Source: Chitinophagaceae bacterium T5-Br10_B2g13 (GTDB lineage: Bacteria > Bacteroidota > Rhodothermia > Balneolales > Balneolaceae). Taken from it: a DNA stretch of 64,000 nucleotides. Both the position numbers and the translations under genes were made by a program. The notes beneath the pieces were generated by a model that ran no database searches, was not told the DNA's origin, and saw nothing but the letters and a program-made list of their open reading frames with translations. Below are positions 415 through 8,447 of this stretch, piece after piece; the stretch's first letter is position 1, and each line of letters starts with the position of its first letter. The stretch spans positions 1-64,000 of the forward strand of contig LKNA01000005.1 of NCBI GenBank assembly GCA_001564065.1, written 5' to 3'.

Positions 415-1749
415 TTACTGCGGATTCATATCAATCAGTGCAGACTCAGACGAGACTACCGTAATGGCGATCAAAGCCACCATAATGAAGAGGTTAATGA
501 AGAGGTTAATGGTGTCGATTACCGACTCCATCTTGTATGTGGTTTGAACTTCATAATAGTCAGCCAGCTGCTTGGCGTTCTGCTTCAGTGCACCGGATTC
601 CGCACCCAGACGAAAACGACTGATGGCCGTTGTTGTAAATACACCGGTATCCTCAATAGACTCCACCAGTCCGGCTCCATCTTTCAACATTCGCTTAATC
701 GCCACCTCCTTAATCTGCTTCTCCATGTAGGAGTTTCGGCAGGCTTCGGACGCCACTTTGATCACCTCGATATTCTGTCCTGAACCGCTATAGAGTGTAA
801 AGAATACACGTGCAAAAATCTCAATACTTGTTTTATGAAGCAGATCCCCAATAACAGGTATTCTTATGATATACTTATCCAGGAAGAGTTTACCCTTGGG
901 GGTCCTGACGTACCAAATAAATAAAGAAATAGGTATAACATGCACGAGTGTAAGTACTATCCAGTTATCAGCCAACCAGTAACTCAGCTCCAGTGTAGCA
1001 GCTGTCATCGGCGGAAGATTGATGTCAAACTCGAGGAAAAGCTCAGCTGTTGCAGGAAATATATACGCAACATAAAACAGAATAGTCGCAATTACGGCCA
1101 AAACCGTAACGGTGGGCATCACCAGTGAACGCCGCAAATTCTTTTTAAACTCTGCGTCCCGTTCCAGAAACTTAGCGGTACTCTTAAATACTTGCGCCAT
1201 GTTACCCGATGTAGACGCAACACTGAGCATATAGGCCGCAAACTTCCCGAAAACATCTTCATGCTTCCCATAGACCTCCTGCCCCTCTTTACCGTCTTTC
1301 AGATCTTTCTGGATCTCCTTGATCACCTCTTTCATCCGTTTGTTCTGTGTATCTTCGTAGAGAAGCCCCAGAATTTCATCATATGGCAGCTGCTGATTTA
1401 ACAGATCAGAAGAAAGGCTGACAAATGTTACCACATCATCATTAGGCACTCCGCCTTTAAAATCAAATAGCTTTTTATTTACGCTGATGACCTTATAGCC
1501 CAGCTTGGTCAGTGCGCGCTCCAGCTCCTCTTTGCTGTACGCCTCCTGCTCTCCGGACTGTTTCGCTTTGCCCGGCCGCTGGACCTTATACATATAGGTC
1601 TCCTTTTTGTCGAGAGCTTTTACCTGGACGCCATTCTTGGCTTCCAGCTTCTTCACCTTGGCCTGAGCCTCTTTTTTATTCTGGGCTTCAAACTCGGTTT
1701 TAATCGGTTTACCGGCGGCGGAGATAGCTTTTAAACGAAATTGGGCCAT
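415..1749 (-). CDS. pilC: Type II secretion / type IV pilus inner-membrane platform protein (PilC/GspF family)
   Basis: Predicted polytopic inner-membrane platform protein that couples the assembly ATPase to pilin polymerisation. Residues 1-60 and about 60-100 form soluble basic segments typical of the N-terminus of PilC. Two T2SSF-type domains follow (about 105-235 and 300-440), with hydrophobic segments near 213-235, 265-285 and 415-437. The last one contains a 12-bp tandem duplication (about 483-506) that repeats NLFI. It lies directly downstream of two pilin-like genes on the same strand. No assembly ATPase, secretin or prepilin peptidase is in the window, so whether this is a pilus or a secretion system is open. 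The gene symbol is by family only. Confidence 0.85.
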   Translation of the reverse strand: MAQFRLKAISAAGKPIKTEFEAQNKKEAQAKVKKLEAKNGVQVKALDKKETYMYKVQRPGKAKQSGEQEAYSKEELERALTKLGYKVISVNKKLFDFKGGVPNDDVVTFVSLSSDLLNQQLPYDEILGLLYEDTQNKRMKEVIKEIQKDLKDGKEGQEVYGKHEDVFGKFAAYMLSVASTSGNMAQVFKSTAKFLERDAEFKKNLRRSLVMPTVTVLAVIATILFYVAYIFPATAELFLEFDINLPPMTAATLELSYWLADNWIVLTLVHVIPISLFIWYVRTPKGKLFLDKYIIRIPVIGDLLHKTSIEIFARVFFTLYSGSGQNIEVIKVASEACRNSYMEKQIKEVAIKRMLKDGAGLVESIEDTGVFTTTAISRFRLGAESGALKQNAKQLADYYEVQTTYKMESVIDTINLFINLFIMVALIAITVVSSESALIDMNPQ

Positions 1750-1859: not shown

Positions 1860-2234
1860 TTATGAATCATCCCGGTCCCAGTTAATCGAATCTATTGTGA
1901 TTGTAGCCGTGAGCATAAATCCTCTTTCTGAGATGGCAATAATTTCAAACGAATCGTCATTGATCTCACCCAATTGATATGCGGCATTTTCATTCTGCTC
2001 TGGCAGTGAAATTTCACGAAGGGTTATCCCTTGATACCGCCCGTTCCCTCCGCCCAAAACATCCGGTTTATGCAGATAAGCATTTGCATTGGATTGAGCC
2101 TTCATTATATCCTGACGAATAGAATCAATATTGGCCTCCTCTGATGCAGATTGGAAAGTATTGATGGCTACGATAGTTGCAAGGCCGACGATAACGGTTA
2201 CCAATATAACGAGTAGAAGTTGTTGCTGCCCCAT
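1860..2234 (-). CDS. Short pilin-like protein with minimal leader (paralogue B)
   Basis: A 124-residue protein whose N-terminus is Met-Gly followed by QQQLLLVILVTVIVG and a hydrophobic helix to about residue 27, then a small polar domain. The first 12 residues match the neighbour at 2421-2906. This resembles a type IV pilin helix after cleavage, but Gln occupies the first positions and there is no Glu at position 5. An in-frame TAA lies four codons before the ATG, so no longer leader can be encoded. It sits 110 bases before pilC and after a strong terminator that ends paralogue A, so it probably has its own promoter or depends on readthrough. Calling it a pilin is inference from helix shape and neighbourhood. 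Confidence 0.7.
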   Translation of the reverse strand: MGQQQLLLVILVTVIVGLATIVAINTFQSASEEANIDSIRQDIMKAQSNANAYLHKPDVLGGGNGRYQGITLREISLPEQNENAAYQLGEINDDSFEIIAISERGFMLTATITIDSINWDRDDS

Positions 2235-2360
2235 ATAATATATTTAGTTTTAGAATAGCCGAAATAAACTAAAATCCAGCGTTAACTTTATTAAATATTA
2301 TCCCTATCTAAGCTAGATAAGCACAACCTAATCACTCTAAAATGTAGAACTGAAAATATA

Positions 2361-2400
2361 GACAATAAAAAAAGCTCCCTCGGGAGCTTTTTTTATTGTC
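2361..2400. terminator. Bidirectional terminator between the two pilin-like genes
   Basis: Perfect 19-base inverted repeat (2361-2379 with 2382-2400) with a GC-rich core flanked by A7 and T7 runs, so it can act on both strands. It lies 21 bases past the stop of the 2421-2906 gene and should separate it from paralogue B and pilC. Confidence 0.85.
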
Positions 2401-2420
2401 TTAGAAATAATACTTAGTAA

Positions 2421-2906
2421 CTAGTTAGACTGTACCCATTCTAATCCATCAGCTAAAACAGTGGCCACTAATGCACCATCTCCATCAGTTCCTGCAGTTG
2501 AACCTTCGTCAGGTTGTCCATCTATTCTACTAGCAGGATGAGCAGTAATCGTAAAACGATCTGATTGCCTTCCAGATATTACATATACACCATTTTCGTT
2601 CCAAGCTTGGTCACCATCGTCATTAATTCCACTTGAAGCAAAAGCAAAATCACCAAAAGTAATTCCACCTGATCCTGCTTCACTTTCTGTTGCTGTACCA
2701 GCATCAAAAGATCGTCCACCACCACCAAGCATGGTTGGACGCATAAAGTATCCTTGTGCTCCAGCCGCGATTTGAGCAACATCTTGTCTAACAGCATCCA
2801 AGTTTGCAGAATCCGCTGCAGATCCAAATGTGTTAATAGCCACAACCGTCGCGATACCCACGATGATTGTTACGAGAATTACGAGTAATAATTGTTGTTG
2901 ACCCAT
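2421..2906 (-). CDS. Pilin-like protein with minimal leader (paralogue A)
   Basis: A 161-residue protein beginning Met-Gly-Gln-Gln-Gln and continuing as a hydrophobic helix to about residue 28, then a Gly/Ala/Asp-rich acidic domain. The start is fixed by an in-frame TAA at 2913-2915, three codons before the ATG, so the leader can be no longer than two residues. Both paralogues share a motif of a Pro, Leu and three Gly near residues 56-62 (a Leu-Gly-Gly-Gly turn). It has a strong terminator of its own and a long upstream non-coding region, which would suit a highly expressed major subunit. Family assignment is inferred from the N-terminal helix and from pilC downstream. Confidence 0.72.
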   Translation of the reverse strand: MGQQQLLLVILVTIIVGIATVVAINTFGSAADSANLDAVRQDVAQIAAGAQGYFMRPTMLGGGGRSFDAGTATESEAGSGGITFGDFAFASSGINDDGDQAWNENGVYVISGRQSDRFTITAHPASRIDGQPDEGSTAGTDGDGALVATVLADGLEWVQSN

Positions 2907-3520
2907 GGTATTTTACCTGTTTGTTTGTGTTAAGTTAAATTGAGTTTCGAATCATTTCCTTCGTGGAAATAGGTTTCGATGTTTGGTTATTGGTTTATGT
3001 AAGTTCTTAATTCGTTTGAGTGAATTACAATGATAAAGAGTAACGAGTAAATGGTTTGTTACAAATTTCTTTGAACATCCAAACCGGCTCTGTTGCTCTG
3101 AAACCAAGATGACGACTTTTGCACTGCGATGCAGTTAAGCTTTTCTAAATTAAAAGGGTTAGTTTTAAACTCTTCTAATTGACCGCCAGCGGGGTCACCA
3201 TCCCTGTTTTCAACGTCTAATAGATTATAAGACTATTTTAGTTAAGGTCAATACCAAAGTCACCTCCTCCATTTGTTAAGTCCGGTTTAACACTAAACCT
3301 AATTTCGTTAGAAGATTATTCAACTTTAAGGACAATCAAGTTAGGAGTTTGTTACAGATCGGAGACTTTTTTTAAAAGATGAATGTTTTTAATGTGTATT
3401 TGATACGACAAATCGGTCGTTCGGTGATTCGTTGTTCATTCTCTTCCGTGGCGTAAATCAAAGCTAATGTCAGCTTCTATATTTAATACGCCGCGCATTA
3501 CCCCCAAACTGCCTTGTCAT
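2907..3520. other. Long non-coding region upstream of the pilin-like gene
   Basis: About 600 AT-rich bases without a convincing ORF. It must hold the promoter and 5' leader of the pilin-like gene, but I could not identify a specific promoter motif. Confidence 0.5.
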
Positions 3521-3558
3521 CTCGACCGATCGAACGCAGTGAGAGAGCGGAGAGATCT
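3521..3558 (+). repeat. 38-bp intergenic repeat, copy 1
   Basis: This 38-base stretch (CTCGACCGATCGAACGCAGT, then GAGAGAG and GGAGAGATCT) recurs at 3793-3830 with one substitution. It faces an inverted diverged copy at 3589-3626, so the pair could fold into a long hairpin. Confidence 0.8.
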
Positions 3559-3792: not shown

Positions 3793-3830
3793 CTCGACCG
3801 ATCGAACGCAGTGAGAGAGTGGAGAGATCT
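3793..3830 (+). repeat. 38-bp intergenic repeat, copy 2
   Basis: It is identical to 3521-3558 except for one base (GAGAGAGT instead of GAGAGAGC). It is preceded by a TC-rich stretch, as copy 1 is. Confidence 0.8.
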
Positions 3831-7994: not shown

Positions 7995-8447
7995 TTAATC
8001 CCAAAAATAGTCTTCACTATATTCAACAACATCATACTCCTTCATAAATCTCTCAATCTCTTCCCGAAAACTCAATTGTTTATGATGTTCTTCCTGCCGG
8101 GCAATATATCTGGTTACTATATCAACTTTCGAGCTGCTAACAGAAAAAGCACCGTATCCCCTCTGCCAATAAAATAAAGGATTATCTGTATGTTCCTTCA
8201 TCCATTTGGAGGAACTCTTCTTAACTTGTTCAACAATCACGGCCATGGCCACATTTTTGGATAGCCGAAACAAAAAATGAACATGATCGGTGACAGAATT
8301 TATGATGAGTGCCGGACTTTTAAGCTCTTTAAAAGTACCTGCCATATACGAATGTAAATCAGATCGGATTTCATTACAGATCAGCGGTTGTCTGTGCTTG
8401 GTTGAAAAGGTCAAATGGATGTAGAGTTTAGACAGGGATTGGCTCAT
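7995..8447 (-). CDS. REP-associated tyrosine transposase (RAYT, IS200/IS605 Y1 family)
   Basis: A 150-residue single-strand DNA transposase of the HUH type. The HUH pair is His55-Val-His57 in TDHVHFLF, and the catalytic Tyr is most likely Tyr114 in TRYIARQEEHH. Length fits the Y1 transposase domain alone. The gene is intact and bracketed by REP hairpins on both sides, the usual arrangement of a domesticated RAYT. It is expected to nick and join REP hairpins, with a role in spreading them in the genome. There is no accessory TnpB gene. Confidence 0.9.
   Translation of the reverse strand: MSQSLSKLYIHLTFSTKHRQPLICNEIRSDLHSYMAGTFKELKSPALIINSVTDHVHFLFRLSKNVAMAVIVEQVKKSSSKWMKEHTDNPLFYWQRGYGAFSVSSSKVDIVTRYIARQEEHHKQLSFREEIERFMKEYDVVEYSEDYFWD

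Follow-up and report, generated by a model that had tools for sequence, protein, structure and literature searches.

Genes at the pilC locus

The window (the whole stretch of DNA analysed, 64,000 nucleotides) carries two paralogous genes for predicted pilins beside pilC. The features of this locus are as follows.

415..1749, minus strand: pilC, PilC/GspF-type platform protein (T2SSF PF00482, E=1e-26)
1860..2234, minus strand: leaderless pilin 2, paralogue of pilin 1, 124 aa (ORF reading, AlphaFold2, structural alignment)
2244..2246, minus strand: in-frame TAA, three codons 5' of the pilin 2 ATG (read directly)
2360..2401, minus strand: intrinsic terminator between the pilin genes, near-perfect 19-bp stem, -27.1 kcal/mol, z -8.7
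2421..2906, minus strand: leaderless pilin 1, probable major pilin, 161 aa (ORF reading, alignment, AlphaFold2, VIA-align)
2913..2915, minus strand: in-frame TAA, two codons 5' of the pilin 1 ATG (read directly)

The N-terminal sequence of pilin 1 (2906..2421) is MGQQQLLLVILVTIIVGIATVVAINTF... and that of pilin 2 (2234..1860) is MGQQQLLLVILVTVIVGLATIVAINTF..., and the two proteins are 55% identical across their first 75 residues. Both start with MGQQQ and enter a hydrophobic helix immediately afterwards, as stated in the preliminary description. Direct reading bears out its further point that the TAA codons at 2913-2915 and 2244-2246 preclude a longer leader: since they lie in frame only two (pilin 1) and three (pilin 2) codons ahead of the start codons, no such leader can be encoded. 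It was also right that neither protein has Phe at +1, a basic leader or Glu at +5, the last a feature of the prepilin signal SPIII. A hydrophilic leader ending in Gly or Ala before the helix was found neither in the two pilins nor in about 190 homologues. The strong terminator downstream of pilin 1 suggests a separate and abundant message, so that this gene is probably transcribed on its own.

Elsewhere in the window, an IS200-like transposase (PF01797) is encoded at 7995-8447 on the minus strand. Several kilobases from it, GATCGAACGCAGTGAGAGAG occurs as two exact intergenic copies, at 3528-3547 and 3800-3819 on the plus strand; together these may represent a REP/RAYT-type arrangement.

Homologues and distribution

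The MGQQQ start is invariant across 15 aligned relatives. Among 190 distinct homologues taken from the fetched loci, 169 start with MGQQQ, 14 with MGTQQ and a few with MGSQQ; this set was gathered in part with the pattern MGQQQLLL, and whole genomes were searched with a profile covering the entire protein. Such invariance among the relatives and near-universality among the homologues show that the pattern does not arise by chance. The open stretch upstream of the start has a median length of four codons (about 190 homologues). Alternative upstream starts were rejected: an in-frame ATG, GTG or TTG precedes the gene in only 5 of about 190 homologues, and none is consistent with the relatives. 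Position 2 is Gly, Ala or Ser in 153/153 homologues, and residues 1-24 contain no acidic residue in 151/153. Two second-copy pilins (L081:10520-10882 and L097:10536-10904) start with MANKE, which places Glu at position 5; they are the sole 2/153 with charged residues among the first 24.

Relatives of pilin 1 are present in 24/40 related genomes. Profile searches found the leaderless pilin in 115/164 genomes of the source class and in 79/149 genomes of the class to which an Ignavibacteria contig belongs. In a scan biased towards MGQQQLLL, the organisms carrying it belong to Balneolota, KSB1, Ignavibacteria, Kryptonia, Calditrichota and Neomarinimicrobiota. Hundreds of genomes in several bacterial phyla share this arrangement, and the earlier characterization of this kind of pilin as uncommon does not hold, as the leaderless pilin is the commonest pilin in the source class and occurs in several phyla.

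Predicted fold

Neither pilin is matched by Pfam, including N_methyl PF07963 and the pilin families. NCBIfam gives sub-cut-off matches only (ComGD, GspH and GspG), all located in the helix, PHROGs gives nothing beyond a weak holin match, and a sequence search of solved structures returns weak matches only, among them geopilin and Thermus PilA5. In both AlphaFold2 models, a helix running from residue 2-3 to residue 55-59 is followed by an antiparallel sheet. The pilin 1 model (pLDDT 82.8) has the helix at residues 3-59, followed by the strands of an antiparallel β-sheet; the pilin 2 model, built with 84 sequences, has a pLDDT of 96.5 and a pTM of 0.80.

Foldseek alone gave no significant match for the two models (best E values of 0.44 and 0.08). 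VIA-align ranks type IV pilins in all of the first eight places for model 1; for model 2, the first eleven places go to type IV pilins or a pseudopilin, with Z from 10.7 to 5.8. Model 2 aligns with PilV (Z 10.7, rmsd 1.7, 84 residues aligned), PilE (Z 8.7), PilA4 (Z 8.6, 112 aligned), full-length PAK pilin (Z 8.6, 111 aligned) and gonococcal pilin (Z 6.9, 108 aligned), where values of Z below 8 can result from a common arrangement; rows at Z 5.7 and lower are mostly unrelated folds. Taken together, AlphaFold2 and VIA-align indicate that both proteins look like type IV pilin-fold subunits, with a long N-terminal helix and an antiparallel β-sheet head. This supports the original suggestion of pilin-like subunits for the adjacent PilC, whose gene lies on the same strand.

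The structural alignments also provide a register for the N-terminus. Residue 2 of model 2 aligns with the first mature residue of PilA4 and gonococcal pilin, and residue 4 with that of PAK. This register against full-length pilins suggests that the chain begins at about the position of a processed-pilin N-terminus.

Operon and comparison with known systems

No T2SSF protein other than the pilC product (1749..415) was found in the source genome; NCBIfam assigns this product to GspF/PilC, under the equivalog cut-offs. At its left edge the window reaches the end of its contig, and the remaining operon lies on contig C171 (L036). The preliminary description had pointed beyond this edge for an assembly ATPase, and PilB is indeed encoded on C171; it has an MshEN-like region, matched below cut-off. 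PilT (L036:3646-4887) matches TIGR01420 with 309 bits over residues 53-403, against a cut-off of 319 bits, and other families score far lower. One further gene lies between them.

L036:2896-3411: small cyclic-nucleotide-binding protein (PF00027), between pilB and pilT

Many Balneolota operons carry a gene for a PF00027 cNMP-binding protein at this position. The PilM/N position is occupied by a 566-aa protein with a weak, sub-cut-off PilN match, PilO is recognized over the Pfam cut-off, and a PilQ-type secretin follows among the L036 products; Pfam and NCBIfam profiles for PilM and PilP match none of the L036 operon proteins. In the relative G023 (L039), these machinery genes directly adjoin pilC and the pilins, and loci of Balneolaceae, Ignavibacteria, Kryptonia and KSB1 conserve the order pilin-pilC-pilB-pilT-pilM-pilO-pilQ. 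Of the class genomes, 153/164 encode T2SSE ATPases.

In many loci, three families of proteins with an N-terminal helix, of about 165, 180-230 and 350-500 aa, are encoded close to pilB and pilT or between them; we take these proteins as candidate minor pilins (L041, L045, L093, L113, L122, L123, L132, L121, L135, L139 and L145). All three families apparently lack a leader as well; Glu or Asp is frequent at position 5-6 of the first, and members of the third mostly start with MGR or MGK. Close relatives encode a protein of the Wzy_C (O-antigen ligase) family between the two pilin genes (L039:9357-10838 and L040:9035-10567); the window lacks it. Pilin glycosyl-ligases such as TfpO belong to Wzy_C, and a ligase at this site in the relatives is in keeping with the pilin reading.

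The system resembles the type IVa pilus in its pilin fold and in having a single operon for PilB and PilT ATPases, PilC and PilM/N-, PilO- and PilQ-like proteins. It differs from that pilus in lacking the leader, Glu5 and PilD, in the apparent fusion of PilM and PilN within the 566-aa protein (whose PilN match is weak) and, in many members, in the cNMP-binding protein between pilB and pilT. The weak GspH, GspG and ComGD matches in the helix and the related machinery recall type II secretion pseudopilins; however, the leaderless-pilin operon contains PilT. In Cytophaga hutchinsonii, which has a type II secretion system, Pfam identified an A24 peptidase (PMC5553014), whereas the leaderless system has PilT and no peptidase. 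Archaeal class III pilins, the substrates of EppA, likewise have Gly-Gln close to the start of the helix. The analogy with them drawn in the preliminary description goes no further, because here there is no basic leader, the source genome contains no A24-family peptidase and the machine is of the bacterial type IVa kind. These proteins fall outside the SPIII definition of prepilins; their fold and machinery make them type IV pilin-like.

A published gene list allows one more comparison. In Melioribacter roseus, a member of the Bacteroidetes/Chlorobi group close to the Ignavibacteria loci with leaderless pilins, pilT, pilQ, pilB and pilC were reported and pilA and pilD were 'not found', which its authors read as an incomplete set (PMC3534657). 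A leaderless pilin offers a possible explanation for such a set without pilA and pilD.

Prepilin peptidase

Both PilD and the prepilin peptidases of archaea belong to the A24 family. No Peptidase_A24 (PF01478) was detected in the source genome (258 contigs, 97.6% complete, 8.9% contaminated), so that the search for a prepilin peptidase beyond the left edge, also proposed in the preliminary description, came back empty. The family was absent in 20/21 genomes of the first search and present in 16/164 genomes of the class; in control searches it was detected in 12/14 reference genomes. Among the 115 class genomes with a leaderless pilin, 102 have no Peptidase_A24 and 13 have one. The genomes with the pilin and no peptidase include single-contig assemblies (G033, G078, G094, G112, G122 and G125, among others), and these, together with the class-wide count, rule out an assembly gap as the reason for the missing enzyme.

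The distribution of classical prepilins is different. PF07963 has no match in the source genome and is found in 17/164 class genomes. Of the 164 genomes, 15 have both the peptidase and a PF07963 prepilin, one has the peptidase only, two have the prepilin only and 146 have neither (Fisher p=3e-18, which is merely indicative because the genomes are related and not independent). The leaderless pilin shows no association with the peptidase in the same genomes (p=0.40). The peptidase thus tracks classical GFxxxE prepilins and not leaderless pilins. G002, a genome of the same genus that serves as a natural control, encodes PilC and PilB of the leaderless type on one contig; another of its contigs (L043) carries a classical operon, with the peptidase beside leader-bearing, Glu5-containing prepilins of the GFTLIE type, and this operon is apparently a sporadic extra system in the class. 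The peptidase also adjoins classical prepilins at KSB1 loci L155-L158 (three KSB1 genomes) and at Balneolaceae locus L163; at L159-L162, no classical prepilin lies near the peptidase within the stretch read. Among the named genomes tested, Peptidase_A24 is absent from both Ignavibacteria and from three of three Kryptonia, and present in most of the KSB1, in the Calditrichota and in the Neomarinimicrobiota genome.

These observations bear on how the N-terminus could be processed. An unrecognized peptidase, unrelated to the A24 family or strongly diverged, might trim it, so that PilD would have been replaced and not dropped. Such an enzyme would be beyond the reach of homology and the operons do hold unnamed proteins, but the conserved operon genes encode known machinery, cNMP-binding or pilin-like proteins, none with the look of a polytopic protease, and the two or three residues before the helix leave little to cut; we regard this as unlikely. 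Still less probable is the reading of the preliminary description, in which a prepilin or class III peptidase cleaves after Gly2 and removes Met-Gly, a minimal leader of two residues, leaving Gln at +1. The Gly -1/Gln +1 pair is reminiscent of archaeal class III sites, and the 13 class genomes noted above do contain both pilin and enzyme. However, the basic n-region is missing, the enzyme is undetected in the source genome and in 102 others, and the G002 peptidase, adjoining a classical leader-bearing prepilin, reveals its type of substrate. With mature residue 1 of known pilins opposite model residue 2 or 4 and no A24 peptidase, a mature chain starting at Gly2 is the more likely form. Lastly, it is equally improbable that the two proteins are bitopic membrane accessories of a degenerate PilC/PilB system and not filament subunits: the missing N_methyl and pilin matches in Pfam and the incomplete set published for Melioribacter (PMC3534657) fit this, but the predicted fold and structural alignments, the tandem paralogues at the operon head, the separate strong terminator of pilin 1, full-length PilB, PilT and PilQ and conservation across several phyla all argue against it.

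Proposed assembly and implications

We consider it likely that these type IV pilin-fold subunits are translated without a leader, used without a prepilin peptidase and assembled by a PilT-bearing, type IVa-like machine. This proposal builds on the leaderless start, the predicted fold, the conserved operon (PilB/C/T/M-N/O/Q) and the lack of a detectable A24 peptidase, from which we infer topology, Met removal, polymerization and a role for the Gln tract. First, the N-terminal hydrophobic helix would itself be the membrane-insertion signal, placing the subunit N-in, C-out. Methionine aminopeptidase acts where residue 2 is small, and Gly, Ala and Ser are all permissive. Given the small residue at position 2, this enzyme would be expected to remove Met1 and leave mature Gly-(Gln)3; conservation of position 2 may instead reflect packing. 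PilC and the PilB motor would then assemble the subunits into a filament that passes through the PilQ secretin and that PilT could retract. A leader would not be needed for these steps. Glu is found at +5 of prepilins often, not always, and normally pairs with the N-terminal amine of the neighbouring subunit (PMC10191384). This salt bridge would be missing here, and the Gln tract, the sole conserved polar feature in the Glu5 region, may substitute for it.

With somewhat less assurance, we think it probable that a whole branch of the type IV pilus superfamily, widespread in Balneolota and the related FCB lineages Ignavibacteria, Kryptonia and KSB1, dropped leader, peptidase and Glu5, and that all of its pilins, including the three minor candidates, are born mature, with Gly1 exposed by methionine aminopeptidase.

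Reviews and the main evolutionary study regard the prepilin peptidase as an ancestral, core part of the type IV filament machine (PMC6668835, PMC10191384), and in a 2014 survey Nanoarchaeota were the sole listed phylum without it (PMC4471445). We found no description of leaderless pilins in the open-access literature, nor a filament, N-terminal sequence or mutant for them in that literature. As standard pilin finders miss the leaderless pilin in several phyla, pili would be under-reported there. If the proposal is true, this widespread peptidase-free system would separate the roles of processing (insertion, storage and timing) from the needs of assembly, and the roles of Glu5 and of the leader would become directly testable.
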